DNA of 64,000 nt from Metaphire vulgaris (Eukaryota; Annelida; Clitellata; Crassiclitellata; Megascolecidae), in the NCBI GenBank assembly GCA_018105865.1, contig CM030861.1, positions 2,732,984 through 2,796,983 of the forward strand. The letters are read 5' to 3'. Within the stretch, counting starts at the first letter, position 1; each line of letters opens with the position of its first letter. The notes beneath the pieces are model-generated. The model made no database searches, was not told the origin of the DNA, and saw nothing but the letters and a program-made list of their open reading frames with translations. Position numbers and translations under genes: made by a program. This document shows, one piece after another, positions 25,282-62,640 of the stretch.

Positions 25282-26580
25282 TATTTTTAGAACCGTAATT
25301 ATCCATGCATATAAATGGCCGGTCGCGACTCTATATAGTAACCACAACGCAATATGTACGAACTTAAATGGTTGAAAGATTTAGTCAGGGTGTGCGGTGA
25401 CAGCTGTTTAGGAGAAATTTCGTTACGTGGTTTTACTAGTGTTGGGTTATGGTGTTAGCCAAAGCCTTCTATATTTAGAAGGCTTTGTGTTGACATATTA
25501 TTCCGCAAATTAGTTTCAAAGGACGATTCACTTTCATATCGCCCAATAACTGCGCTCGACGACATTCACGAATTTCCGGTGGTCTATTATTAGAAGAGAT
25601 TGCGAAAAGTTGAAAGTGGTATTTCCAACGATCGAACGGGCGCCCGAGAATCCGAGATGGTTGTCAAAAGGTTTTGTCACTCGCTTGATTATTAGTCATT
25701 GACGAAAACCGATACACTGTAGTAAAAAAATGGTCTTCTGCGAATGCGAGTGGTTCTCACGCAAACACCTTCAAGTCTTAAACACAATTATTTTATATTA
25801 TTAGTAATACTGTGAGTTTAAGTGGTTTTAGGAGGCTAAGTAAGCCTGTGTGAAAGTACCGACTACCGACACGTTCTAGATCTTGTACCTACATATTTTT
25901 TCCTTTTCAATGCACAGGTAGACTTGAATATTGTAAATCTTCATCATTGGCGTACCCATGAGACCTGGGATTCAATTCAATCAATCAACTTCTATGGCGC
26001 CATTGTGATACTGCCTGGGACATTAGCCGATGGTGCACCAAATCCAATCCGAATTAGTGCCAGATAAAGCTGGAAAAGCCTGGTATTAATGGTCCGTCAG
26101 ATCATCGGGGGGAGGGGGGCAATCTAAGTGGAGAGGCCAAACCAGATTTGTGCAAAACCTATCAGAAATTTTTAGGGGTTCGGGGCTGGGCTGAATATGT
26201 CGACATAATCGAAACGCCTGGCTGTATTGCAGCGTTTCACCACTCAGTAATAAACGACACCTTTTATGAATCTGTCCTCGTCCCATGATAGGCCTATGCT
26301 GCTAGTGCATGAGGATCAGGACTGACGGGGCGGAGAATGGCGCTGGAAGAGAGTGATCTCTGAATTTCCAGAAGGAATTTCTTTTCCATATCGTCAGATT
26401 AGACTGACTCATTAGAGTGATATTATGTTTATCAAGATAATAAATAATTAGGTGAAATCGCTTAAGTTACCCTTCGCATCTTTTCTTGCTGCGTGATTGA
26501 TTGATAGCTCGATATGATATGAAGTGTTGAATGAATAATATTATCATTGCTCATATAGGCATAGACCTAGATATAAATAG
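25282..26580. other. Intergenic; short repeat pieces only
   Basis: Contains a degraded copy of the recurrent hairpin at 25821-25860 and, near 25985-26085, a dispersed repeat (CTTCTATGGCGCCATTGTGA..GATGGTGCACCAAATCC) also seen near 41500. No gene seen. Confidence 0.4.
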
Positions 26581-26610: not shown

Positions 26611-26684
26611 GGCCCGTTAGCTCAGTTGGTTAGAGCGTCGTGCTAATAACGCGAAGGTCGTGGGTTCGATCCCCATACGGGCCA
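26611..26684 (+). tRNA. tRNA-Ile (anticodon AAT)
   Basis: A 74-nt cloverleaf. Acceptor stem GGCCCGT pairs with ACGGGCC, discriminator A. D stem GCTC/GAGC. Anticodon stem TCGTG/CGCGA (one T-G pair) with loop CTAATAA, giving anticodon AAT for Ile AUU/AUC after A-to-I editing. Variable loop AGGTC; T stem GTGGG/CCCAT with loop TTCGATC. A box TAGCTCAGTTGG and B box GGTTCGATCCC are intact. No encoded CCA and no intron, as in eukaryotic nuclear genes. TTTT at 26689-26692 is the likely Pol III terminator. Confidence 0.95.
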
Positions 26685-26688
26685 TACA

Positions 26689-26692
26689 TTTT
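26689..26692 (+). terminator. Pol III terminator for tRNA-Ile
   Basis: A run of four T starting five bases after the tRNA 3' end. Confidence 0.6.
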
Positions 26693-26697
26693 GGGAA

Positions 26698-26760
26698 CGG
26701 AGGATGGCAGAGTGGGTTACGCGACAACGGTTATAGACAAAGGTTTATAGACCTTCGACG
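26698..26760 (+). repeat. SINE-head-like fragment beside the tRNA
   Basis: GGAGGATGGCAGAGTGGGTT resembles the A-box head of the SINE family described at 30758 and 37503 (GATGGCAGAGTGGGTTA). The rest does not match, so this may be a truncated copy. Confidence 0.4.
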
Positions 26761-30757: not shown

Positions 30758-31182
<425 letters not shown>

Positions 31183-31250
31183 TATAATGTGATTTTAAGT
31201 GGTTTGAGGCTGTAAGCCAGTGTGTGTGCAACTGAAATTATCGGTCTGTA
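31183..31250 (-). mobile_element. SINE/LINE 3' hairpin fragment
   Basis: GATTTTAAGTGGTTTGAGGCTG then TAAGCC and GTGTGTGCAAC: a decayed copy of the recurrent hairpin, tail facing the TAA run. Confidence 0.55.
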
Positions 31251-32307: not shown

Positions 32308-32586
32308 CAGGATTTGGAAATGGCCGATGGAAAGAACCCTAACAGGCCTGTATTAAAACGATGGAGACAAAACAGGCCTGCATGAAAATGGCCGATGGAA
32401 GGAACTCCTAACAGGCCTGTATGGAAATGGCCGATGGAAAGAACTCCTAACAGGCCTGTATGGAAATGGCCGATGGAAGGAACTCCTAACAGGCCTGCAT
32501 GGAAATGGCCGATGGAAGGAACTCCTAACAGGCCTGCATGGAAATGGCCGATGGAAGGAACTCCTAACAGGCCTGTATAAAACACT
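32308..32586. repeat. 39-bp minisatellite, about 6-7 copies
   Basis: Units of 39 bp contain ATGGCCGATGGAAGGAACTC and CTAACAGGCCTGTATGGAA, with A/G and T/C variants between units. The unit is 13 codons long and stop-free in several frames, so it creates shadow frames (repeating EGTPNRPVWKWPM and VRSSFHRPFPCRP). A single related segment, CTCCTAACAGGCCTG.., recurs at 34043-34076. Confidence 0.92.
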
Positions 32587-32876
32587 GAGCCGAACGCCGC
32601 GCGGGGAAACGACGACGCCGACAGCAGAACGGATCTCCATCCGCGAGAAGCTGAGGGAGGGAGTTAACCTTCAGAGCCTACGACTATGCGCGGCGGCGGC
32701 CATACAGACAGTTTGCCTTTAACGCGGCGGTCGAAGCCTTTTCTGTGATAACAAAGTTCGTCTTTCTTTCGCTCTACAGCGTCAGAACTATGCGCCAGCC
32801 CATATGCAGATGGACCTAAACTTAGGCGGCCTATGCAGCGCCTAGAGGCCGATTGTCACACGCCAACCCTCTAGGA

Positions 32877-36711: not shown

Positions 36712-37502
36712 GTTGTTACTGTCGCTAATTTCATCATTTGGGCTTCATAAAAGAATTTATCAACGATTTGTCATGCACAGATTCATTACCCCCATCGGTG
36801 AACTTCGAGCACCACTTTCCATATTGGCGTAGACCTATGGCCAGTGTTCCGCAATACGAGGGAAGGCAAATCGAGTAAAAATGCGCGTGAAAAACGGATC
36901 GTCGTCAAAGAGATTCTTAGCAATTTCGCATATTAATCTTCGATCATTCTGCCTCCCCCAAATTTCTCAACTGTTTTCCCAAATTCCACGACTGGTCTCA
37001 AGCAGCATAGGGGCGTCCTCCGTGCCCGAAGTTTGAGACCAAAACCCTGTCTCAAAAACGAGACAAAGACTTTAAAAACTTAGTCTCGAGAGTCGACAGT
37101 GACGTAACGTGGTGGGGAGGGGGGGGCGATGCCGCGATGGGGCAATTTGCAGAAATCAACCCGTGCCCCGGAAGAAAATGGACCCTGAAGAGTGGTTGCA
37201 ACTTACTAAACAATGATTTGTTTTTACAATTGACTACTATTTCAATATTACTGCAACAAAGTGAAAGTGAGTAAATATTGAATTAGGGAGTAAACCTTAT
37301 TTTAGACTGGTGTAATCTATGTTATCCTATAGTGGCCCCCATATCCTATAGGGGCCTCATATCAAGGATACCCTCGTCCCTCGGGCCCCCGAAAGTAACG
37401 CTACGCCAATGAGAGTTGAAGACCACAGCACTGGAATTTTCTATGCAGTGAATGCATCATCCACTCCAGTCCATAGTAATCGGTAAACTACTAAACTACA
37501 GC

Positions 37503-37634
37503 GTAATTTATAATGGCTTAGGAGGCATTACTGCCGGCGTGAAAGCCACTATAGGGGCGCCAATCCGACTTGAACCTCGTTCCGTTAGTCTACTGCTCCA
37601 GCGTCTAACCCACTCTGCCATCTTCTGCCCCTAG
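37503..37634 (-). mobile_element. SINE with tRNA-like head and 3' hairpin
   Basis: Read on the minus strand: head GATGGCAGAGTGGGTTAGAC (A-box-like), then GAGGTTCAAGTCGG (B-box-like; GGTTCAAGTC is close to the Pol III consensus), then the hairpin with stem TGGCTT/AAGCCA and inner stem GGCA/TGCC (37513-37550). The head looks most like a Ser or Leu tRNA. The best-preserved head in the window. Confidence 0.75.
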
Positions 37635-38209: not shown

Positions 38210-38275
38210 AAAAGTCGATTTAAAGCGATTTTAAGTGTCTTAGCTAGAGGCATCACTGCCTGTGTGAAAGCCAAT
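38210..38275 (-). mobile_element. Hairpin fragment of the SINE/LINE 3' end
   Basis: TTTTAAGTGTCTTAG, AGGCATCACTGCCTGTGTG and AAAGCCAAT: inner stem AGGCA/TGCCT is kept while the outer stem has decayed. Confidence 0.6.
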
Positions 38276-38849
38276 ATTCGACCTGTTAATTACGAGTGCA
38301 ATGTCATTGATATGCGACATATGCCATTATGTAAATTTACAATAAGCTTATACTGCATCCTCGTGTAGCCATTGATATATGATGCTGATTCCAATAACCA
38401 CGCATAACAAATTTGCATCAACCGTCCACAGCATCTGCAGATTCAGAGCTTAAAGCAGTTATTTATAGATCATGGAATTTCCATTTTGAAAACACGTCCG
38501 CAGCTTGTTTCCAGCCAACCACAAGAGAGATCCATACGCTCCGATGCTAGAGCCGGGCAGCCGCCAGCCTCAGGCCTCGATTCGTAGCTATTGGAATTTC
38601 CCAGTTTTCCAGAAGTCACCTTTCTATTTGGGAAATTTTCACGTTACGCAAGATGAGATCAACTGCTGAGTTCAGCAAATCCCAATCATCTTTGATAAAT
38701 GAAACTTTAATAACATAAAACCACATTTTACAGCAACTAAGCAGATGGCGTATATTGCTTATCGTAAAATGCTGAAAAGCTGTGGAGTAGATAATAAATG
38801 TCAGAATTGCTGCTGCTGTTGCTGGAAGTAACAAAAGCAAGGCAATATC

Positions 38850-38950: not shown

Positions 38951-39453
38951 GACAGACAGAGTGATAGACTGATAGAAAGAGACAGACAGAAAGAGAGAAA
39001 CAGACAGACATGTGTGCATTTATTAGCAATAATTAATTATAATTGTCGTATTGTCATAAAACAAACATATCTCTGAAACTTCTGAAAGGCGTTTTTTTCA
39101 CGTATGGCTCCTAGAGATGAGGGCGTTGTGAATGAATTTCCTTCTCGGGGCATTGGTGCACGGACGTAAATCCCGGGGGTCTGGAGGGGGGACGGTCCAA
39201 TCCAATAATTAGTCAAAGGGGATATAGTATCGTCTACCTCCCTCAATATTCGGCAAATAGACTACACTATAGCATACTTGTATTTAATAGACTAAGCTTA
39301 TTTGTTTCATAGTAATATTAGTAGTAGTAGTTAGGTTTCATATGTCAATAACTTCTACTTCTTAATTTCAAAGTGTGCGATTTCATGTCCAAAATGCACT
39401 GAAACTCACCTACGAACATCTATTGATTTCAAACAATTTTCCCGGGGTTATAC

Positions 39454-40395
39454 CAGTGATGTTAACAAGGACTGACCCCCCAAGGACGAGGATAAGGACA
39501 AGGACCGACCCCCCAAGGACGAGGATAAGGACAAGAACTGACTCCCCAAGGACGAGGATAAGGACGAGGACCGACCCTCCAAGGACTAGGACAAGGACCA
39601 GGACTTACCCCTCAAGCACAAGGACCACAAGGACTGACCCCCAAGGACAAGGATCAAGGACAAGGACCGATCTCTGTTTTAGATAAAAAAAAGTCAGAAA
39701 GGAAAAAAGCAAAAACAATTTCAAATCGAATCACAAAATCATAAAAGCAAAAAAAGAATGTTGCAAAACATAATTTAGTCAACAGCAATGTTGCATTTCA
39801 AATAAACAAGTGTTTCCAACAGCTGATCAGTCATGCACGCACGATGAGGCCTAATATTATGACACCACTTTGCGAAAAAACTCGTTCAACTGCCAATCTC
39901 CATTGCTGATCATGATTTGTTCCATTCCTTTGTAAGTTTGTAGACAATGACACCAGTATTTTAAGATACAACTAAAGAATAATAGAAATTTTAAAAACGC
40001 ATGCGTCTGGTTCATACGCTTTCAAACAGGAAATGGAAGTTCAGCTGCTCAACTGGTATTATAAAGGGAACAATGACTACACATTTAGAATAACTCAAAG
40101 CAAGTATGTAAATATGAATCCAAATACTACTCTTACCTTGGAACATAATTATCAGAACAATTGAAAATGGTATGCAAGTAATTTGGTCCTTATAAGGATT
40201 TTTCAAGGACTAAGTTACAAGGACCAGAACAAGGACCGATCTGCAAGGACGAGGATAAGGACGAGGACTGAGCCCCCAAGGACGAGGACAAGGACGAGGA
40301 CTGAGTCCCCAAGGACGAGGACAAGGACAAGGACTTCAAATTGGTCCTTAAGGAGTCCTTAAGGACAAGGACCAGGACAAGGATTAACATCACTG
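39454..40395 (-). mobile_element. hAT transposon relic with purine-rich terminal arrays
   Basis: Ends CAGTGATGTTAAC and TTAACATCACTG with a perfect 8-bp duplication GGTTATAC (39446-39453, 40396-40403). Near ~39800-39900 the minus strand encodes VERVFSQSGVII, the hAT C-terminal dimerisation motif (ERVFSQSG), followed by a decayed D/Q-L-L segment; the rest of the transposase is lost. Both ends carry degenerate arrays of GGACGAGGATAAGGACAAGG units (39466-39680 and 40204-40385) in the same strand orientation. Confidence 0.85.
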
Positions 40396-42871: not shown

Positions 42872-42880
42872 TAATATAAC

Positions 42881-42935
42881 AAGGTTTAAAGTGGTTCAGT
42901 AGGGACTGCCCTGTGTGAGAACCACTTATACAGTG
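42881..42935 (-). mobile_element. Hairpin copy beside TAA tail
   Basis: AGTGGTTC .. GAACCACT outer stem and AGGG/CCCT inner stem at 42890-42926. Both differ from other copies yet still pair. Confidence 0.7.
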
Positions 42936-43079
42936 TCTGGATTTCTGTCTGTCTGTCTGCCTATTACCGCATTTTGCTTTGAACTTTGATTTAGCTCTAT
43001 AGCCCTCTACCGGTCGCTCTATCAGCTGCTGTTGTTTGACTCTACTATTGACATTCGGACGCTGCATCCTCCCGCCATT

Positions 43080-43456
43080 GCATCAACCATTAACCACGCA
43101 TGATGACTAAAAGGCTTTCCCCACGGATTGAGTTGATGATTCGTGGCGCATTTAACCATATACACCACTGCCGTTTAGAGAAAACGTGGTTGTTGTGGTT
43201 ATGCGGTGGCTATAAAGTACCTGAATCATATATAAGCGTCTTTATAAATAAGAGTATTATTTGAAAATTAGCCGAATACAGCGTTAAGTTCTCTTCGATT
43301 CAGAACAAAAGTTTCATGAAATTTTGAATCCGAATGTAATTGTAAAATTTATCGAACACTGTTGACATTAGCGAACGCTAGCGTAAAGGACTCTGTTGGA
43401 AGCTGAACTTCGTTGTTTTACACTTAATTATTACAAAGGCATTTTAATCAGTGAAG
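43080..43456 (+). promoter_or_regulatory. Presumed promoter and 5' UTR of the IRF gene
   Basis: Unique sequence upstream of the IRF ATG. No TATA box or interferon-response element was found by eye. Start of transcription not determinable. Confidence 0.35.
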
Positions 43457-43904
43457 ATGAGTGAGAATTTGTCGCGTGAGTCGTTGAGGTCGTCGAAAAG
43501 ACAGCGCAAGAGAAAGCGCAGAGAGAGCGAGTTCTACAGCGAAGACTCGGCGGTCGAGGTCGACATCGACTCCGGGTCTGACACGGAGTTCCGCTGCGGA
43601 TCGTCGAAGAAGAAGCGCCTCAGGAGGTCCGGGTCGTTGACGGCCAAACGCCAGGCATTCGGCAGCGGCTGGGGGACGTCGGCGGCGGCGGACTGGCCGA
43701 CCAGATACGGCGGCGGCGGCGGCGGCGGTGAGAAGCTGCTCCTCCGTCAGTGGCTGCAGAGACAGGCGGACGACGAAACGATTCCGGGACTCTCCTGGTT
43801 GGACAAGGACAAAACTCAGATCCGAATTCCGTGGAAGCACGGATCGAGGACTGGATGGACGATCGAAGACTGCCACGTCTACCGCGCCTGGGCAGTACAC
43901 ACAG
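43457..43904 (+). CDS. IRF: IRF exon 1
   Basis: ATG, 149 codons plus one base, donor GTACTG. Encodes the N-terminal extension and the DNA-binding domain up to [10 protein letters not shown]-rich with a GGC repeat coding poly-Gly (residues 85-91). Confidence 0.88.
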
Positions 43905-44618
43905 GTACTGTAGGCAAATTAAAGCTCGGAGCTTTAAAAACATAATAATGTGATTTTAAGTGGTTTAGGAGGCTAAGTGTGAAAACCACTGATGTAACCA
44001 TCTGCATTCAATAACCTAGTCGAGATAGCCTTTGAATCCGTTTACTGTTTCAACTGTGTGATTTGAGACCATTTGGAACAGTGGCGGCTCCACAGGGGGG
44101 TCCGGGGGGCCCGTGCCCCCCTATTGAGTGCCTCTTTCAGTGGCCCCCCAGTTGGGACCCTATACTTAATACTACATGCCTAACAACAAATGGTTGGCCC
44201 CATGATTAGAAGTTGCCACCCCAACGCCCCCCCCCCCACTTGCCAAATCCTGGAGCCGCCACTGATTAGGAATCGGCTTTAGTCTTGAATTCAGTTTTTT
44301 TATCATTAGACAGCACAACATTTGGGAATTTAGCAGTAAAGTGTCAAAAGGAGTAGAGCCAGTGAAGCTGAAGCCCATAATTTCCATTACCTTGCAACAT
44401 TTCATAATCCTGAGCATTGACGTGTTTGTGACATCATTTGTCAGAATATTTAAGCAACTTTGATCCATTTGCTGAACTATTAGCATACCTATTCTGAAAT
44501 AGGTGAAACTTTAGCATTTAGAGTTTTAGACAGAACTATTAGATTATTTCTATATGATCAACAGCAGATTTTAAGTTTCATATGAACTTTTATATTCACC
44601 ATTTTTTTAAATGTGTGT

Positions 44619-47600: not shown

Positions 47601-49047
47601 CAAAAAACAATAAATTTTCTAAAAACTAAAATGACAGTCGCAGACTGATGGTTGAGGGTTTGTGTTAAGTTAGTTATTAATCTTAACAAGGCAGTGTACA
47701 GTACTGGTCTTGCAGTAGCTGTTTTGTGGAGGAAGCTACTTTGGTCCTCAGACTGTTGCATAAATAGTTGACCATTGAACACCAGTTATGCAGTTAAAGT
47801 CAACAGCAGTTTCCCGCCCTTCGTCTGCAGTTTTCATAGAAATTTTGACTGAAGCACACTTGACTTTGGTGAATTCTTTTCATCAGTGAGCTCACTCATT
47901 TTGAATATGAATGAATAAAAGAACTTACTTGTATTCTCAATCAAAAATGCTGGAAACAGTGAAACACGCTCGATGATTCATAAAGAATTCTACTGTACAG
48001 AGTAAGGCATTTGGCAACATTGAATACGATGGCCTCCAATTCTAATATTGAGAAAGCCTTGTCACCCGTATTTGTTCAGTGATATGAATTCAGCTATGCA
48101 CATAAGTGTTCCTATGTTTTTACTGTATTGCACTGTATACTGCATAATGTGTTGTTATTTTTATAACTAAACTTTGGTTTCATTGTAAATGATTTATCTT
48201 TTTAATAAACTCACTTTAAAAATAAACACACTTATTTGTTTTTAGAACTCCATCATATATATAAAACAATTATTAATTAAAAGTTACATGATTTGTTTAT
48301 ATTTTAAATGTTGACAGAATTCACAAGTCTTGTGTTTGATTTCACACATTATGGTGTCTTTGTGATTTGTTAGTTTTGGACCTTAAATCTTTTAAACTGC
48401 AAATAATGTTAAAGGAGCTTGTTGTTATCACAGTATTATTTTTGTGTTTTAGAAACAAAGCAGTGCAGTTTGGAGACAATTGAAGATGAATCAGAAGAAT
48501 CTTGTCCACTTTCTTCGCCTCCCATAACACAATGTCTGCATTCAAGTTCTGGAATTGACATTAAGGTATTCACGAATAGAAACTAACTAATGAATTGTGA
48601 TCATTTTTTAAAAGCAAAAACTTGAATAAAGATTTGAAAACTTCTGTACAGCAGCACTTAATTAATATGGTATTCCAAAGTATCAGAGATAGAAACTATA
48701 AATGATCTTACTCATTATAAGAGATGAAAAGGAAATGATATATCTTTCATGGTTGAACATTATCAATGTTGTATTGAATGTCACTTCCAGTTATATAGTC
48801 CAGGTCTGTGGAACTTAGGTCATTAGACGTGTTCTTGTGAAGACAGAGAATTGTGTGTTTAAGTTAAATGTGTAGAGTTAATGTGCATTTCAGTGCCTTT
48901 GTAATTCAATCGGATAACGCATCAGAATAATTTTGAGACAAATTGATAGCTAAATAGCTTGAATGTAGAGTTACTACAGTGGTTTTTACACAGGCTTACT
49001 TAGCCTCCTAAACCACTTTAAATCGCATAATAATAATAATAATAATA

Positions 49048-52927: not shown

Positions 52928-53467
52928 GTTTAATAATAAGGTGATCTAAAGTGGTTTAAGAGGCTAAGTAATCCTGTGTGAAAACCACTGTAGTATCTCT
53001 CCACATTCAATAACCTAGTTTTCCGAGATAGCCTTTGAATCCATTTACTGTTTTAACTGTCGCTCCCACCTCGTCCAAACTGTTCCTTTTGTCGACAACC
53101 CTTGCACTAAAAAAAATTTTCTTTCTTGGACCCACTCTCTGCTTATTCTTTCTTGGACCCACTCTCTGCTTAAACAATTTGCATTTGTGGCCTCTGGTGC
53201 TGCTATAGTGTGCCAATGTAAAGAATCGATCGAATGACACATCTACTTTCCCAGTCATTATTTTGTATGTTTCTATCAAATCCCCCCTCTCTCTCTTCTT
53301 CTTCTTTCTAATGTTGTCAGTCCACAATATTGAAGTCTTTATTCGTAGCTTAAATTATGGTATCCACAGACCATCTTTGTTGCTCGTCTTTGCACTTTTT
53401 CTAAAAGTGCTATGTCTTTTTTCAAAAATGGATTCCATGACTGAACACAGTATTGTAGATGAGACCT
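52928..53467 (-). mobile_element. LINE 3' end with RT C-terminus and conserved 3' hairpin
   Basis: On the minus strand, with frameshifts, come [39 protein letters not shown]-type and GDLIETYKIMTGKVDVSF, FFTLAHYSSTRGHKCKLF and FFSARVVDKRNSL. These are the standard post-RT tail of a large jockey/CR1-superfamily LINE group (RRARGD.I.TYKI, TRGH..KLF, FS.RVV..WNSLP). A 3' UTR of ~100 nt follows and ends with the hairpin (52950-52989) and a short ATT tail. A 20-residue-scale duplication is present (RVGPRKN.. twice). Confidence 0.85.
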
Positions 53468-53472
53468 TACTA

Positions 53473-53560
53473 AGGGGTCGTCCATTAATTACAAAATAGG
53501 GGAGTGAGGGGTTTGAAGAAAATTGTTGACGTCTGACATGGGACGCTGCACTCGCAAAAC
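53473..53560. mobile_element. Fragment of AGGGGTCGTCC palindromic repeat
   Basis: Starts AGGGGTCGTCCATTAATTAC; related to 22608 and 63253. Right end not found. Confidence 0.45.
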
Positions 53561-53957
53561 AATACCACAGAAGTGAACAAAAGCCCATGCATTTTGACCC
53601 TGAGTTGTAACAAAATTTTACAATGAAACAGTATTTTTGGGCCACCCTGTAGCGTGGATCAGTATCTGGTCTCAGGAAAGTTGCCTATGGAGTTCCACAA
53701 GGATCGATCCTTGGACCTCTGTTGTTCGCTATCTTCATTAGTAAGCTCGATGACATAGTGATGCTACACAAGTTCAATACGCACTACTATGCAGATGACC
53801 TCTTTATCTCAGCCACCACCCCACTGAAGTAAAGGATGCAGCAGAAGCACTGCAAGCCTGCATAAGGGACGTAGAAGGGTGGTGTTTAACAGGAATAGGC
53901 TCAAACTCAATCCCCAAAAACTCAACTAATCTGCCTAGGGCATAGGAAACAGATAGA

Positions 53958-54883
53958 CAGTGTTGGGTAAGTTACTTTTTATTTGTAACTAGATACAATT
54001 ACAAGTTACTAAGTAAAAAAGTAACTAGATACAGTTACAAGATAATTTTTTAAAGTAACTAGATACAGTTACAGGTAATTGAGGAGTAACTAGTTACAGT
54101 TACTTGTAGTTAAAAATACATTACAATATAGTACCAGTTGTCGAATAACAGTTCTTGTACGTAGTTTCATTTCGTTAGTTTTGTTGTTCAACATTAGTAA
54201 TAAAGCACAAGTAGTTTAACTAAGCAAACAGTTGATAGTAATCAAATACAGAAACCATAAATAATGTAAGTACAAAACTTTTATGCCACGAATATTAGGT
54301 TGTTAGCCAGCAAGAAAATTAGCTAGCTAATATAGTTCAATACTTAAAAAGTTACAATCAGAAACTGCAAACACCGTTAAAGTTATAAGATGAAGCTAAA
54401 AACACAGATGACATTAGCAAGTTAAAACTTCACATAAAAAGAAATCTATTGGCTCTCAGCAAAAGCTGCTGCTCAAAGTGTTCGTCTATCCTGTTGCGCC
54501 TAGGGGTCAGAATCTGACCTCCTAAACTAAATAAACGCTCTACTGGTGCACTAGATGGTAATGATGTGTTGTATTTTATGAATAGCTACTTAATCACCTT
54601 ATTCAGGCTTTTTAAATCTGGTGATGGATCACTCGGATACAACTCAACTTGAGCTGCTGCATCTGTGTTTATGAACTTTGGCTCATCAAATTCTAAATTC
54701 TATTACAAATAAAAAAGTAACTTGCAAAGTAACTATAAAATATCCGTTACAGTTCCTAAAAAAAGTAACTAGTTACAGTTACTAGTTACATCACAAAAAT
54801 GTATATAGTTACAGTTACAGTTACTGATTTGGTAACTAAGTTACAGTAACTTAGTTACAGTAACTCGTTACTACCCAACACTG
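53958..54883 (-). mobile_element. hAT transposon relic (CAGTGTTGGGTAAGTTAC ends)
   Basis: Ends CAGTGTTGGGTAAGTTACTT and AACTCGTTACTACCCAACACTG-type, with a perfect 8-bp duplication CAGATAGA (53950-53957, 54884-54891). At ~54430-54590 the minus strand encodes [20 protein letters not shown] and LTPRRNRID, the hAT C-terminal dimerisation domain. Terminal GTAACTAGTTACAG-like repeats fill both ends. The rest of the transposase is deleted. Confidence 0.9.
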
Positions 54884-55124
54884 CAGATAGATAAAGTAAT
54901 ACTGGATAAAATCAGCATTGGTTTGATTGAAATCTTGCGTCCTAAAGTTGTACAAAATCTAGGTGTTATGTTTGGCGAAAATCTGACAATGGTTCAGCAT
55001 GTCAACAAGGTTGTTGCAAGCAGTTTCGGCGAACTACGGAAATTGAGATCGATAATACCTCCTCTGACACAAGAAGCGGCAAAGGTGTTAGTTCATGCGC
55101 TTGTAGATCATAGTTATAGGCGTT

Positions 55125-55345
55125 TTAGGCGTTTCCTAACGCCTATAACTATGATCAACACAGATGTATTATAACTTCATATATTAATTATTAATGTTCG
55201 TATCCAGGACGCAACGGAGTGAGAGTCTTCGACTGTGTGAGAGCGACTGACGCTGAAACTAGTACTCTATAGAATATATAATGTAAGACTATCGCAGCTA
55301 CGCTATTGGTTGAGGCGTGGCTTGTAAGTGTCCAATCACGCCACA
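55125..55345 (-). repeat. 3' LTR (left copy)
   Basis: Identical by eye to the right LTR over 55128-55345. Its outermost three bases differ, and the flanking 19 bp (55106-55124) are an inverted copy of LTR bases 55139-55157. Confidence 0.9.
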
Positions 55346-55450
55346 TCTCTTCCCATTAATTAGGCTCATTATCTAATTAAGAAAATTAATATTTATAGCA
55401 GTTCTGTTAAAACTTTATCAGTCATCTAAAACAGAAATTTAAAATGTTAA

Positions 55451-58400
55451 CTATTTATATCTAGATGGCTTTCTGACTGTACGGCCAGATCTAGTCTTAT
55501 ATGGTTCAGCTCCTCTAGTAGTTATTTGTTGTTCCCTAGGTGGCGCTGGGATTGCCTCAGTTGTATCAGATGATGGTTCGTTCGCAGCGCTGGTGGAGTG
55601 TTGATCTTCATGCACCAGTGATTTGTACGGTGGTCTCGAACGGCTGTCTTCTTCTCTTTTCATTGATGGTTGTCCTTGTCCTTCGCTTTCCTCCTGGAAA
55701 ATGACAGGGGGTTCCAGGGAAAACCTGACATGCCTGGAGCTTCTTCGTTTGATTGAACCGTCGGCCAGCCGAAGTTGATACGATCGATGTGGAAGGACGT
55801 CTGTAACTTCCGCTTTCTTCCAGTGGTCGTCGGTCGGTCGTACTTTCACGCGACAAGTGTCTCCCTTCTGTAGCTTCCGTCGGTTGTGCGCGTTTTTGTT
55901 GTAGTAAGCGGCTTGCTTCAATTTTGATCGTTCTAATGCCTGTTGGACCTTGGCTGCAGAAGGAGTATCCAGTAGTTTACTGCTGATAGGCAACTTTGTG
56001 CGCGTTCGACGCCCAAACATAATTTGCGCGGGGCTTAGACCCAATCTCTCGGAAGGACAATTTCTCCACTCCATTAAGGAAATGTAGGGGTCTAAATTTT
56101 CATCTAAAGCTTTCTTCATCAGCTTCTTAGCCATTTTAACTGCTGACTCTGCTTTGCCATTTCCTTGGCTATGCATTGGTGAACTTAAGACATGTTGAAA
56201 CTCGTATTTGTCTGCGAATTTCTTAAATTCCATTGAGTTAAATGGGCTGTTATCACTATGCAAAAATGATGGGATACCATATCTTGCGAAATGTTGTTTT
56301 AGGCAGTAAATTATGTTGCTCACCGACTTCGATGGTAATCTGTCTATTTCGAAGAATCCACTGAGGAAGTCTGTTGAAATTAAATATTCTCGCTGTTGAA
56401 ATGCGAAAATATCGACTGCTATTCTTTCCCATTGTCGAGACGGTGGGGGGATGGGTGCCAGTGGTTCTTTTGGAGGCAAGTCTCTGAATGTATTGCAGAT
56501 GTGACATTTCAGAACTTTCTCTCGGAGTTCATAGGTCAAATTTGGCCAGAAAACCACCTCCCTCGCTCGACGTAGACAACTGTTTAGTCCAATATGAGAC
56601 GAGTGTAGACGGTTTAGAATTTCCTGTCTCGCCGGTGCTGGTACGACAAGACGATGTCCTTTATAGACGAGACCTCGACAAACCGATAATTCATCTCCAA
56701 AGGTCGCAAAAGGTCGAACGTCGGCTGTCAGCCCCTTCGGCGAGTCGGGCCAGCCTCGATAAATCTGTTCTTTCAGGCGGATGTAGCTCGGATCGGATGT
56801 CGCGTCTGTGATGAGTTTCAGAGTAGACGGAGATGTTATTAATCGAGTTTCTGCTTCTTGCTCCGCATCTGCTGTCTCTAGGAAAGCAATTTCTTCACTG
56901 AACTCCTGCGGAGTGCCTCTGGCAATGTAAGATCGGCTGAGGGCGTCTGCCAAAATTAAATCTCGGCCAGCAACGTATTCCATTTCAAAATCGTATCTTT
57001 GTAGCTTTAACAACAGGCGCTGGAGCCTTTTTGGCGCAGAAGAGAGAGACTTTTTGAATATACTCAATAAAGGTTTATGGTCATTTTGAACTTTTACTTT
57101 TCTGGCATATGTGTAGTAATGAAATTTCTCCATCGCAAAACATATTGAAAGACATTCTCTTTCGAGTTGGCTCCATCCTTTTTCAGCGTCTGTTAATGCA
57201 CGGCTAGCATACTCTACTACACGATTCTGTTGAAGGAGAAGGGCTCCTACGCCTTTTTGAGAGCTGTCGCACTGAACAAGCAAGTCCTTCTTGTCATTAA
57301 AATAGGCTAAAACAGGCGCAGATTTTAACATACCTTTCAATTTCTCGAAGGCTTCAGTGTGACGTTCATCCCATCTGAAGTGCGAGTCGGACTTCAAAAG
57401 CTCACGAAGCACCGACGTGACGTCACTGTAGTGAGGGCAGTATCTTGCTAAATAGTTGGCCATTCCGAGAAGACGTTGAAGTGCAGCTTTATCTTCTGGT
57501 TGCGCGAAGTTTTCAATGGCTTCGATTTTCGAGGCGGAAGGCTTTATTCCGTCTTTCGTTAAGTCATGGCCCATAAAAGTGATGCAATCTCGATGAAGTT
57601 TCATCTTTTCTCTGTTCAATTTAACTCCCTTTTCTCGACATCTCTGAAAAAGAGCAATTAAATTGGCATCGTGGTCCTGCATTGCTTCTTTCTGCGTGTT
57701 GCCAGAACCAGTTATCAGAATGTCATCGGCAATGCAGAAAATCCCTTTCAGTCCAGAAAGTGCTGCATGTATTCGTGCTTGAAATATTTCCGATGAAACT
57801 GAAAGACCAAAAGGAAGACGTAGATATCTGAAACGAGAAAAAGGCGTGTCAAAAGTGCATAGTAGACTTGATTCATGGTCAAGCTGAAGCATGTTGAAGG
57901 CATTTTCACAATCCACTGTGCTGAAAACTCGAACCCCAGACAGCTTGTGCAAGATGTCGTCGAGGGTCGGCAGACAGTACCGGCTTCTGATTAGCGCAGG
58001 GTTTAGGGTCCTTGTAGGGTCAAGACACAGTCTGAGTTTCCCATTATTCTTGATGGTGACAACTAACGCAGAGACCCAGGCAGTCGGCTCCGTTACTGAC
58101 GTAATTATACCTTGAGAAACCATATGCTGAAGTTCGTTTTCGACTCTGTCCTTGACTGCAATTGCCATTCGACGCAGTGGTAGCTGCACTGGTCGATACG
58201 ACGGATCTATATCCAGATGGACAGTACCTTCCATCAGTCCCAGATTTCCGTCGAACAGGTCGCCAAAACGAGCAAAGACATCAGCTTCAGTCAGCTGTCG
58301 CTCCAACGCAGGTGGCGAAACAGCTTCGGTCGCACAGATGTTGTGCTCCATAACGCGCAGGAGATCCAGTTCCTGGCAAATTGACATGCCTAGAATAGGA

Positions 58401-58639
58401 CTGTCATGATCAGTGACATAAATTTCCGTCAGTAATTGTTTTTTCGTCGTCGGATGAGTAATCGTGACGTCGATAACTCCTGCTGTCGGCAGCTCTAGAC
58501 CGCTAAACATTCGCAGAACTGATTTCGCTGGACGCAGCGCTGGTCGCAAAGGAAGGTTTTCGTAAATCGACGATGATATGGCTGTAATCGTTGATCCAGA
58601 ATCAATCATAAATCGGACACGCATTCCATTTATCAGCAA
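55451..58639 (-). CDS. pol: Pol polyprotein: protease, RT, RNase H, integrase
   Basis: A 1062-codon uninterrupted frame. Its first Met (58639) lies inside the gag-pol reading, so the true start is upstream. Protease active site FMIDSGST at 11-17. RT at ~150-330 with motif A FSTVDCENAF (D243), LRLPFGLSVS, and IADDILI (A304-D306, in place of the usual Y-x-D-D). RNase H from VQCDSSQKGVGALLL (D457), with YASRALTDAE and NDHKPL. Integrase with H679, H682, C712, C715 and the catalytic triad D743, D796, E831. The C terminus is KPSRYK. All key residues are present; nothing in this frame is obviously broken. Confidence 0.9.
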   Translation of the reverse strand: MLINGMRVRFMIDSGSTITAISSSIYENLPLRPALRPAKSVLRMFSGLELPTAGVIDVTITHPTTKKQLLTEIYVTDHDSPILGMSICQELDLLRVMEHNICATEAVSPPALERQLTEADVFARFGDLFDGNLGLMEGTVHLDIDPSYRPVQLPLRRMAIAVKDRVENELQHMVSQGIITSVTEPTAWVSALVVTIKNNGKLRLCLDPTRTLNPALIRSRYCLPTLDDILHKLSGVRVFSTVDCENAFNMLQLDHESSLLCTFDTPFSRFRYLRLPFGLSVSSEIFQARIHAALSGLKGIFCIADDILITGSGNTQKEAMQDHDANLIALFQRCREKGVKLNREKMKLHRDCITFMGHDLTKDGIKPSASKIEAIENFAQPEDKAALQRLLGMANYLARYCPHYSDVTSVLRELLKSDSHFRWDERHTEAFEKLKGMLKSAPVLAYFNDKKDLLVQCDSSQKGVGALLLQQNRVVEYASRALTDAEKGWSQLERECLSICFAMEKFHYYTYARKVKVQNDHKPLLSIFKKSLSSAPKRLQRLLLKLQRYDFEMEYVAGRDLILADALSRSYIARGTPQEFSEEIAFLETADAEQEAETRLITSPSTLKLITDATSDPSYIRLKEQIYRGWPDSPKGLTADVRPFATFGDELSVCRGLVYKGHRLVVPAPARQEILNRLHSSHIGLNSCLRRAREVVFWPNLTYELREKVLKCHICNTFRDLPPKEPLAPIPPPSRQWERIAVDIFAFQQREYLISTDFLSGFFEIDRLPSKSVSNIIYCLKQHFARYGIPSFLHSDNSPFNSMEFKKFADKYEFQHVLSSPMHSQGNGKAESAVKMAKKLMKKALDENLDPYISLMEWRNCPSERLGLSPAQIMFGRRTRTKLPISSKLLDTPSAAKVQQALERSKLKQAAYYNKNAHNRRKLQKGDTCRVKVRPTDDHWKKAEVTDVLPHRSYQLRLADGSIKRRSSRHVRFSLEPPVIFQEESEGQGQPSMKREEDSRSRPPYKSLVHEDQHSTSAANEPSSDTTEAIPAPPREQQITTRGAEPYKTRSGRTVRKPSRYK

Positions 58640-58713
58640 ATGCGTAAATACACGTCCTCCTGAATCAGTAGAATTCAGAACGAGAACAGATTCGAAAGAA
58701 TCAGATAGCTGCT

Positions 58714-59295
58714 TTACGCTTCCGTACGAAGAATTTCTCTTTTCACATTGGGCAGCATAATGGTTTTCTCATTGCAGCGCCGACACACAGCGCCAAAAGC
58801 TGGACAGTTATTCTTGCCGCGCTCATGGCTACGCCCACAGAAACGACAAGAATCTCTAACTGTACCTTTCGCAGGGCGATTCCGGTTTTGACTCGGATGC
58901 CTTTGATCTCGGGTCTCGTGTCGACGATTCCCTTGTTTCGCTCCATCGTGCTGACGACGATGCTGACTGTGATCACGGCGAGGCGGAGGGTCGCGACGCA
59001 AAGCGTTGACTGCTCCCGTCTCCGTGATGGCTTTGAATTGGCGGGCGGTCGCCTCTTGTGCCTTGCAGACGTCGATGGCCTTTTGAAGGTCGAGTCCTTG
59101 CGTCCCAAGCAGTTTCCGGCGGGTTACGTCGTCGTGGATCCCAAGGACAATACGGTCGCGAATCATGGAAGACTCCGCTGCACCGAATCCACACGAGCGG
59201 ACGAGGCGTCGCAAATCTGCAGCGAATACATCGAACGATTCACCAGGACTCTGTTTCCTGGTGTTGAACAAGTATCTCTCGTAGACCTCATTCAA
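58714..59295 (-). CDS. gag: Gag C-terminal part with zinc knuckle (frame B)
   Basis: A 193-codon frame: NEVYERYLFNTRKQSPGESF and FAADLRRLVRSCGF (capsid), IRDRIVLGIHDDVTRRKLLG, a basic linker (RRDHSQHRRQHD, HETRDQRHPSQNR), then a zinc knuckle CRFCGRSHERGKNNC (C-X2-C-X3-H-X6-C) and the start of a second, CRRCNEK. A second frame change inside the second knuckle (~58755) returns the reading to frame A, the pol frame. Confidence 0.75.
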   Translation of the reverse strand: MNEVYERYLFNTRKQSPGESFDVFAADLRRLVRSCGFGAAESSMIRDRIVLGIHDDVTRRKLLGTQGLDLQKAIDVCKAQEATARQFKAITETGAVNALRRDPPPRRDHSQHRRQHDGAKQGNRRHETRDQRHPSQNRNRPAKGTVRDSCRFCGRSHERGKNNCPAFGAVCRRCNEKTIMLPNVKREILRTEA

Positions 59296-59569
59296 CTCGC
59301 CAACGCAGTACCGTTTCGAAGGCCTCTAGAATGTCAGTCGTACTCTTCCGTTGCTCCTCAGTCAACGTCATCGACTCGAAAGTGACGTATGCGTCGGATC
59401 CAATGCAGGCTAGGAGAGTCGCAGCCTGAACTTCTGCAGTTTCTCCAGACACTTTCGCAGCGATACAAAAATTTTTCCATTGGCCCTGGAATCGACGGAA
59501 CTCCACACATAAGTTCGCCGCATTCAGATCCAGTTTCTCCGGCAGAGGAATGTTCGATCTGGTCGCCAT
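59288..59569 (-). CDS. gag: Gag N-terminal part (frame A)
   Basis: A 93-codon open frame starting MATRSNIPLPEKLDLN, with FRRFQGQWKNFCIA and ATLLACIGSDAYVTFESMTL, typical of the capsid start of Mag/K02A2.6-type gypsy elements. It ends at a stop because of a one-base frame change around 59300; the capsid reading continues in the next frame. Confidence 0.75.
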   Translation of the reverse strand: MATRSNIPLPEKLDLNAANLCVEFRRFQGQWKNFCIAAKVSGETAEVQAATLLACIGSDAYVTFESMTLTEEQRKSTTDILEAFETVLRWRVE

Positions 59570-59635
59570 AGTAACTAATGTTCACTTTTTTTTATTAAAC
59601 GCAAAGCTGTGAGTTCGTTTCCGCTGATGACACCA

Positions 59636-59856
59636 TGTGGCGTTTCCTAACGCCTATAACTATGATCAACACAGATGTATTATAACTTCATATATTAATT
59701 ATTAATGTTCGTATCCAGGACGCAACGGAGTGAGAGTCTTCGACTGTGTGAGAGCGACTGACGCTGAAACTAGTACTCTATAGAATATATAATGTAAGAC
59801 TATCGCAGCTACGCTATTGGTTGAGGCGTGGCTTGTAAGTGTCCAATCACGCCACA
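59636..59856 (-). repeat. 5' LTR (right copy)
   Basis: Complete LTR with TGTGGCG..CGCCACA termini. It carries the promoter side for the minus-strand element, next to the TGGTGTCA primer-binding site (59635 and below). Confidence 0.9.
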
Positions 59857-60404
59857 AAGTACAAGACTGGACTACTGTAATTATTGTAATAGCTTGTTAG
59901 CACAAATCAGCAACACACAAATTCAGCGCCTTCAGGCGGTGCAGAATGCTGCAGCCCACCTTTTAACAGACACAAAGAGGAACCAGCACATCACACCGGT
60001 TCTACGTGAATTGCTTTGGATTCCGATCAAGCAGAGACTGATTTTCAAGATCATTTCCCTCGTGGATAAGTGTCTCCGAGGAGAGGCACTGGAATACTTT
60101 TCCTGTGAATGTAAGCAGTTGAGGTCGATGCTCAGACCGTTTGGACTCAGATCAGATAACACAAGATCTTTGGTCACTACTCGAACCAGCACAAAGATTG
60201 GTGATCGTTCATTTAGGACGTTAGGGCCTTACTACTGGAATGCTCTCCCAGCGGAGCTACGGGACAATACCACCTCTCGAGACGTTTTCCTTTCAAGACT
60301 TAAAACATTATTCTTTGACCAATCAGCAGCGGCATTTGTGCTAACTCGATAAGTGCGCCTATTAAAGGAACAATCTAATCTATCTAATCTAATCTAACTT
60401 AGCC

Positions 60405-60530
60405 TGATTTAAAGTGGCTTAGAAGGCATTACTGCCTGTGTGAAAGCCACTATGGGCACTAATGGGGCTTGAATCCGCTCCGTCAGCCTGACGCTCCAGC
60501 ACGTTACCCACTCTGCCATCTTCCGCCCCC
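60405..60530 (-). mobile_element. SINE with tRNA-like head and 3' hairpin
   Basis: Minus-strand head GATGGCAGAGTGGGTAACG (A-box-like), a B-box-like GCGGATTCAAGCCCC, then hairpin AGTGGCTT/AAGCCACT with inner GGCA/TGCC (60413-60451). Adjacent to the LINE 3' end at 60392. Confidence 0.75.
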
Positions 60531-61429: not shown

Positions 61430-62640
61430 TGAAAATGGATTCAACTGCGTATAAAGACAGGCACCATCTTTCTGGATTTGACAGCAGCTTTCGATGCGGT
61501 GTGGCATGCGGGTTTAATGTACAAACTCTCGCTCAATTTGCCACCCTGGTTCTGTCAACTTGTGGAATTACTCATCTCTGACAGACGGTTCTTAGTTCAC
61601 TTGGGAGATGTCAGCTCCTGGAGACGTCAGCGAAACGGTCTAACACAGTGTTCAGTTCTAGCACCTATGTTATTCAATGTGTAGGCTTATAGGCCTACAC
61701 ACGACTTACCGGATACCATAGGTAGGAAGTTTGGATACGCTGACGATATCGGTCTTGCCACCCAGGCTCGATCCTTTAAGGAGATTGAAGACCAGGGTTA
61801 TTTCTAGGATTGTGAATTGGGGTGGGGTGTCGAGAAAATCTGGGGTGTGTTTATTTCTAGGATTGTAGGATTGTGAATTTGGGGGTGTCGGGAAAATCTG
61901 GGGGTGTCGAAATTTGGAAGTCTCTACCGAAAAAGGCTGACAAGCAAAAAACCTTATAGAGACTCACAAAAAGTCTGACAAGCAAAAAAGTCATCCGAGG
62001 ATAAAAGTTGTGGGGTGTATTTCCCATTTGGGGGCAGGCCCTTTCAGAGGCTGAAGGAGGCCCAGGCTATTTGGAATTTCTAGGCCTCTCCTAGCCTTCC
62101 CAACAATTAAAATGTTGACAAGCGAAAAAAGGTAATCACCAATTTTGAGGACCGCAGAATACCTTCCTAGCTTTCCCAAAATCCCAAAATTGTCGACAAG
62201 CAAAAAAGGTCATCACCAATTTTGAGGACCGCAGAATACCTTCCTAGCTTTCCCAAAATCCCAAAATTGTCGACAAGCAAAAAAGGTCATCACCAAATTG
62301 TGAGTCCCCTTCTAGTAGTAGCTATTTAGCTTTCTAGCTCTCTCAGAATTCTAGACAAGGAAACCAAGGGAGGCCCCCAAATGATGGAGGCCCGGGCCGA
62401 ATGGCCCTCCTGGTCCCCCTCTGAATGGGCCTGTTTGAGAGTGTTCGGGGCTAATCAATATGCATTCTGTATGCATACCATTGTGACATTACCAAATTTT
62501 AGGGGGTGTCGACCTCAAATTGGGGTGTTGGAGGGTGTTAGGGGTGTAGAAATATCCCTGTTGAAGACCAACTGAACATCGATACACAGAGGATTGCGAA
62601 TACTGTAAAATATGGCGGGAAAGCCAGTTTCTAAAGGTAC
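61430..62640 (+). mobile_element. LINE RT fragment inside the hAT element, itself interrupted
   Basis: Segments 61430-61792 and 62561-62640. Reads FLDLTAAFDAVWHAGLMYKL (RT motif A), LVELLISDRRFLVHLGD, RNGLTQCSVLAPMLFNV (Q-G-S-x-L-A-P motif B region) and, after one stop, FGYADDIGLATQ (motif C, YADD). RT of the CR1/jockey type. Confidence 0.8.
61793..62560. mobile_element. hAT-like MITE (CAGGGTTATTTCTAG ends), 768 bp
   Basis: Ends CAGGGTTATTTCTAG and GTAGAAATATCCCTG with perfect 8-bp duplication TTGAAGAC (61785-61792, 62561-62568). Internal direct repeat of ~90 bp (TTGTCGACAAGCAAAAAAGG, CACCAATTTTGAGGACCGCA) around 62110-62290. Confidence 0.88.

Follow-up and report, generated by a model that had tools for sequence, protein, structure and literature searches.

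Do a long interspersed nuclear element (LINE) and a short interspersed nuclear element (SINE) of the annelid Metaphire vulgaris share a hairpin at their 3' ends, and does this common tail let the enzyme of the one mobilise the other? The question is raised by a stretch of 64,000 nucleotides (nt; G000:C30:2732984-2796983), in the following called the window; the genome searched comprises 728,303,522 bases. We propose, with a probability of roughly 80%, that the two elements form a LINE/SINE pair of the stringent type, in which CR1-like LINEs are recognised at their 3' end through the hairpin, and the homologous copy on the SINE lets the LINE reverse transcriptase (RT) act in trans. This proposal is based on a common homologous tail, on defined ends and A and B boxes of the SINE, on changes between lineages that preserve the stem pairs, on a constant TCACAC strand and on dispersed, nearly identical SINEs. 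By their motifs we take the LINEs to be CR1-like.

A sequence-only reading had listed nine hairpins in the window (at 25821, 31198, 37513, 38234, 42890, 43959, 48978, 52950 and 60413) and proposed to build a covariance model from collected copies. The model built from these nine, R1, matches them by construction (E <= 1.7e-10, with the next best places in the window at 0.21, 3.1 and 4.1), and in 232 kilobases (kb) elsewhere in the genome (202 kb of contig 1 and 30 kb of contigs 2-4) it finds 12 further matches at E <= 0.01, giving 21 in total with the window. All nine positions carry the hairpin, as judged by R1 and by these independent matches. A hairpin pattern searched in the whole genome gave 4,848 matches and the reversed pattern, used as a control, gave 0; in viral contigs and in bacterial and archaeal contigs the hairpin pattern has 0 matches.

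The stem variants quoted by the earlier reading are accurate. The strand on which it read them is the complementary one: the sense strand, set by the LINE reading frame and the SINE head, is minus in eight copies and plus at 48978. A reading on the strand first used was rejected, as the LINE frame and the SINE head lie on the opposite strand. The folding z-score is lower on the sense than on the antisense strand in seven of the nine copies (the exceptions being 25821 and 42890), and its sense values range from -0.60 to -3.72. The LINE and the two SINE copies from which the argument starts are given here, with the letters L and S denoting hairpin types that are defined further below.

52934..52999, minus strand: type-L hairpin at the 3' end of the LINE (R1 76.6 bits; one inner-stem mismatch; sense z -3.35)
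53007..53354, minus strand: C-terminal piece of the LINE frame, with its stop codon just 5' of the hairpin (10 homologues at E <= 0.001, the best at 3.4e-28)
53355..53478, minus strand: more LINE coding sequence in another frame, 5'-truncated, with approximate ends (three-frame reading)
60397..60530, minus strand: full-length SINE with an A/B-box head (about 60456-60530) and a type-S hairpin tail (A box with 0 mismatches, B box with 1)
37496..37632, minus strand: second, more diverged copy of the same SINE family (A box with 0 mismatches, B box with 1; 79.5% over 132 nt with the first copy)

The hairpin had been said to end a LINE at 52928. The LINE frame does end a few bases before the hairpin, but this LINE is a relative of the SINE tail and not its match, since the two are unlike in stem, apical loop and terminal repeat. 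The C-terminal piece at 53007..53354 has no match in Pfam. An RT domain is found in a second, related LINE (L013; 68-71% in DNA), which ends in a hairpin of a further type, E (RVT_1, L013:2180-3220, E 4.5e-21), the LINE copy in the window being too short for it.

The hairpin occurs in three types. The sense hairpin of type L, seen in the first LINE (L001, L016 and the window copies), reads in DNA letters AGTGGTTT-TCACAC-AGGCT-TACTT-AGCCT-CCT-AAACCACT, that is, an outer stem of 8 base pairs (bp), an asymmetric internal loop, an inner stem of 5 bp and an apical loop (TACTT). Type E, seen at 42890 in the window, in L017, twice in L012 and in L013, has the outer stem AGTGGTTC/GAACCACT, the inner stem AGGG/CCCT and the apical loop CAGT; its intact hairpins are those without an attached LINE frame. 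Type S, seen on the SINE and on headless copies, has the outer stem AGTGGCTT/AAGCCACT, the inner stem AGGCA/TGCCT and the apical loop GTAA; the genome contains 2,629 places where a 20-base core of this type has a pyrimidine at -15 (reversed control 0). While the apical loop varies by type, the three consensuses agree in the 5' strand of the internal loop, TCACAC, and in TTWAAA (W = A or T) directly after the hairpin.

The tails of the two elements are homologous and not unrelated: the SINE at 60413 agrees with the LINE at 48978 in 81% over 48 nt and with the LINE at 52950 in 80% over 49 nt.

The SINE is about 130 nt long. In both copies for which A- and B-box-like heads had been claimed (37503 and 60405) the A box is intact and the B box nearly so, and a scan for both boxes at a spacing like that of transfer RNA (tRNA) found three places in the 64-kb window, namely the two SINEs and a tRNA-Ile gene at 26611, and five more in the 202 kb of other stretches. 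A genome search with the SINE (134 nt) gave 998 first-look candidates, of which 40 were scored; among the 41 matches listed, the window's own included, 40 are near full length with 95-100% identity. We fetched and aligned 20 of these 41 places. The copies are dispersed and have fixed ends, with a common head start and the 3' end ...TTTAAATCATGCTAAG, both within a few bases, mostly followed by TTAAG-like or T-rich repeats. They deviate by 0-3.6% from their consensus over 112 compared columns, which stop inside the hairpin; because the fetched copies are among the best-scoring, the apparent age of the SINE is biased towards young. By eye, TCTAA(C) lies on either side of 60397-60530 as a possible target-site duplication, and in other copies such a duplication is short or not evident.

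Two side observations concern similar heads. A 24-nt match (92%) to the A-box region of the SINE lies at 26690-26725, directly 3' of the tRNA-Ile gene, with no B box seen there. Other SINE-like A/B-box heads with different bodies occur at L003:4301 (minus strand), L010:4000 (minus strand) and L011:3704 (plus strand), and perhaps represent further SINE families.

The comparison of the three consensuses carries the argument for a conserved shape. Types L and S differ in two pairs, outer pair 6 (T-A/C-G) and inner pair 5 (T-A/A-T). Types L and E differ in two more, outer pair 8 (T-A/C-G) and inner pair 4 (C-G/G-C), and inner pair 5 is lost in E. All four differing pairs changed on both sides and are still paired, and the number of one-sided differences is 0; in L019, a single copy, an inner G-C became A-T. 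If four substitutions are placed at random in the stems, all pairs are kept with a probability of 0.0044 (L to S) or 0.0048 (L to E), G-U being allowed.

Two alignments were compared with 500 shuffles each. In the first (A1), where MAFFT put the inner stem of type E off register, with the change in E showing up in adjacent columns, the covariation score reaches 0.182 compared to 0.078 in the shuffled sets (0/500), cells changed on both sides number 8 compared to 3.0 (0/500), and, more weakly, pairs changed on both sides number 4 compared to 2.1 (5/500). In the second (A3; 21 rows, 20 of them distinct, aligned to the covariance model) the score is 0.160 compared to 0.080 (0/500) and 15 cells changed on both sides compared to 4.9 (0/500). 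Slid controls of both alignments give far fewer pairs. One may object that the type differences are founder differences between repeat families and that the covariation reflects nothing but relatedness, as the covarying cells mostly trace back to the L/S and L/E splits, the shuffle statistics ignore kinship, and A3 has two measures out of five that do not exceed the shuffles. We consider this improbable, because in each split the substituted consensus stem bases always form complementary pairs (p about 0.004-0.005 each) and because of the result of the slid controls.

Outer pair 6 was also counted in the first 100 listed of the 4,848 matches in the genome, these 100 lying on contig 1: 72 are T-A, 22 C-G, 4 T-G and 2 C-A, numbers that reflect families and not independent events, obtained with a pattern that fixes the neighbouring stem bases.

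The earlier reading had stated that the stems vary but still pair. This is true of the type consensuses, but five individual copies in the window have damaged stems: the outer 5' arm is broken at 25821 and 31198, outer-stem mismatches occur at 38234, the copy at 43959 lacks the inner stem, and the one at 52950 has a single mismatch in it. The window copies besides those listed above are the following.

25805..25871, minus strand: type-L tail with broken or truncated 5' arm (R1 54.0 bits)
31182..31243, minus strand: type-L tail with broken or truncated 5' arm (R1 54.4 bits)
38218..38285, minus strand: type-S inner stem without SINE head, outer stem decayed (R1 64.7 bits)
42874..42937, minus strand: type-E hairpin (R1 61.4 bits; 96% over 84 nt with L017)
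43943..44057, minus strand: 5'-truncated type-L LINE with deleted inner stem (80.5% over 128 nt with the LINE at 52934)
48959..49033, plus strand: 5'-truncated type-L LINE with intact hairpin and ATT-type tail (R1 79.5 bits; 89.7% over 68 nt with 52934)

Several observations weigh against the proposed pair. Further pair types in A1 (5 compared to 4.8 in the shuffled sets; 359/500) give no support, and in A3 neither the pairs changed on both sides (4 compared to 2.8; 86/500) nor the further pair types (9 compared to 9.0; 366/500) are above the shuffles. RNAalifold predicted no pairs on the gappy alignment A1. The independent compensation events are few, involving three or four lineages. The name CR1-like refers to sequence motifs and not to an RT tree, and in the hairpin of L013 the inner stem has no 5' arm and the internal-loop strand is missing. 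The SINE had been called tRNA-headed; it has RNA polymerase III boxes at tRNA-like spacing, but its head is recognised neither by Rfam (no match at E <= 1 for two window and four genome copies) nor by ARAGORN (no tRNA call for two window and eight genome copies). We therefore call the head tRNA-like, a term that refers to its promoter boxes.

To look for LINE tails that resemble the SINE in its outer stem, a pattern for LINE-anchored hairpins with C at outer base 6 was used. It located 63 genome places (control 0), and 20 of these, hand-picked for variety, were fetched. They are mostly decayed L-like copies; in 15 of them the C faces A and in 2 it faces G, and in 3 the partner base is unreadable (in L074, unreadable by script, it is G by eye). 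A near-identical group of four (L065-L068) shares one uncompensated change, so that uncompensated changes can be inherited as well. The group (C4:21.2-22.3 Mb and C45) also has upstream sequence in common and may have arisen by segmental duplication or form a small subfamily. One-sided changes in single LINE copies mostly look like decay, so that it is only between source lineages that selection on the fold becomes visible. The earlier conclusion that compensatory changes indicate selection on RNA shape thus holds between lineages and type consensuses, but not for single copies (15 of 20 LINE tails are uncompensated). A conserved 3' hairpin whose pairing is kept through change is found, with the reservations of the RNAalifold result and the one-sided changes in the LINEs.

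The terminal repeats differ as well, being TTAAG-like in the SINE and ATT in the LINE, and none of the 20 LINE tails fetched from the 63 places has an S-type inner stem, so that the LINE source of the SINE tail was not found. A variant of the proposed pair takes this into account: a third, unseen LINE family with an S-type hairpin and a (TTAAG)n-like repeat would move the SINE, and the L and E LINEs would be its cousins. The differences of type S from L and E in stem, loop and terminal repeat speak for this, as does L071, a LINE tail with a shortened inner stem-loop which may be intermediate between LINE and SINE tails. Against it, the S-type inner stem is missing from the 20 fetched LINE tails, and 13 fetched headless S-type copies have no upstream sequence in common. 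We regard the third family as a serious possibility, although the odds are somewhat against it.

These 13 copies come from a search for S hairpins without the usual upstream C bases, with one mismatch allowed, which gave 139 genome places (control 0). Of 20 places fetched, 7 have a SINE head according to blastn and 13 (L045, L046, L048, L050-L053, L056, L057 and L060-L063) start at the base of the hairpin, are about 55-60 nt long and consist of the tail only, with flanks that do not match one another. As the pattern left out breaks inside the C run, the sharpness of the break is partly a product of selection by the search. By eye, the flank of L052 resembles LINE endonuclease code, and this copy may have inserted into a LINE or belong to one.

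A process at the DNA level also deserves mention. Template-switch correction of imperfect inverted repeats is a known mutational process, and with hairpin arms lying within about 40 nt, switching inside an imperfect palindrome could make paired changes with no selection on the RNA. We think this hardly likely, as the correction of a palindrome leaves unexplained that the unpaired TCACAC is the same in three consensuses, and as changes in single LINE copies are mostly one-sided.

Returning to the LINE/SINE pair, we infer its mode of action as follows. The SINE would be transcribed by RNA polymerase III from its A/B-box head, giving an RNA that would end in the hairpin and a short repeat; the LINE protein would bind the hairpin, and target-primed reverse transcription would begin on the terminal repeat. 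The LINE acting in trans would be one of the CR1-like LINEs. A more specific idea, which we put forward only tentatively and consider rather doubtful, is that the RT reads the tail mainly by the TCACAC strand and the shape of the duplex and not by the apical loop; stems and apical loop could then drift in pairs and the SINE could use cousin LINEs, and in addition the hairpin tail alone may suffice as a template. For the headless tails, it is possible either that the RT stopped, with complementary DNA ending there, or that the head was cut off, perhaps by RNase Z at the tRNA-like 3' end.

The principle of such a pair is known, as LINE-derived SINE tails, the passerine layout and compensatory hairpins of plants are all established. 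Ohshima 2013 (PMC3747384) states 58 SINEs with a LINE-derived tail, with CR1 being prominent. The arrangement is known in many animals and plants, and the family reported here is a new example. Passerine TguSINE1/PittSINE (PMC5729268) likewise combine a tRNA-derived head with a CR1-derived tail, a hairpin and a terminal microsatellite. Their tails are highly similar to one CR1 subfamily, whereas the present SINE tail is distinct from those LINE tails that were found, and their terminal repeat is AUUCURUG as compared to the TTAAG-like (SINE) or ATT (LINE) repeats here. Comparable cases are SURF1/CR1-4_SP and Nve-Nin-DC-SINE/CR1_NV (PMC3747384, Table 1), invertebrate SINEs with a tRNA promoter and a CR1-clade tail, a likeness by description and not by sequence. 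The plant L1/ZmSINE2 pair (PMC3747384) shares with the present one the compensatory changes in a 3' hairpin common to LINE and SINE, but belongs to the L1 clade and has (T)n 3' repeats.

A 3' stem-loop with a short repeat is also found in eel UnaL2/UnaSINE1 (PMC5135761) and in zebrafish ZfL2-1 and ZfL2-2 (PMC4176376). Retrotransposition of UnaL2 needs the stem-loop and the repeat (PMC5135761) and that of ZfL2 needs the stem-loop (PMC4176376). For UnaL2, a role is reported both for the apical loop, suggested to be the part recognised, and for a small internal loop within the stem (PMC5135761), and in ZfL2-2 the loop decides binding (PMC4176376). Here, in contrast, the apical loop varies and a larger internal-loop strand, TCACAC, is constant, which suggests from the sequences that internal loop and duplex shape may carry more of the recognition.

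It had been stated that no description of this pair was known. This may hold for these particular sequences, as no description of the pair was found in the open-licence literature and none of the papers containing the sequence words of the hairpin concerns transposable elements, judged by title; the kind, however, is well described in Ohshima 2013 (PMC3747384). Three tail types in one genome, in thousands of copies, with paired changes in the stems from type to type and one constant internal-loop strand, provide a natural mutagenesis series, which yields a clear prediction as to which bases a CR1-like RT reads. The SINE tail may have drifted from its LINE yet stayed usable.

We further report neighbouring features in the window. 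Between 53650 and 60400 nested insertions are seen by eye, with a plus-strand LINE that contains a YADD-type RT stretch and lies in pieces at about 53660-53960, 54890-55127 and 59857-60352. A TTGGGTAAGT-type element (about 53960-54890) and a long terminal repeat (LTR) retrotransposon interrupt this LINE, and the SINE at 60397-60530 sits in the (TCTAA)n tail of the LINE. The LTR retrotransposon is flanked by 218-nt direct repeats (55128-55345 and 59639-59856) that are 100% identical, so that its insertion is probably recent; its open frame of 1,105 amino acids has protease, RT, RNase H and integrase matches, with rve below its cut-off. A likely exon of an interferon regulatory factor (IRF) lies at 43448-43945 (Pfam IRF, E 2.1e-17), and the LINE remnant at 43943 starts about 40 bases past its likely splice donor. 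Short tandem arrays occur at 32332-32617 (period 39 nt), 39448-39637 (33 nt), 40211-40367 (33 nt) and 62125-62278 (77 nt).

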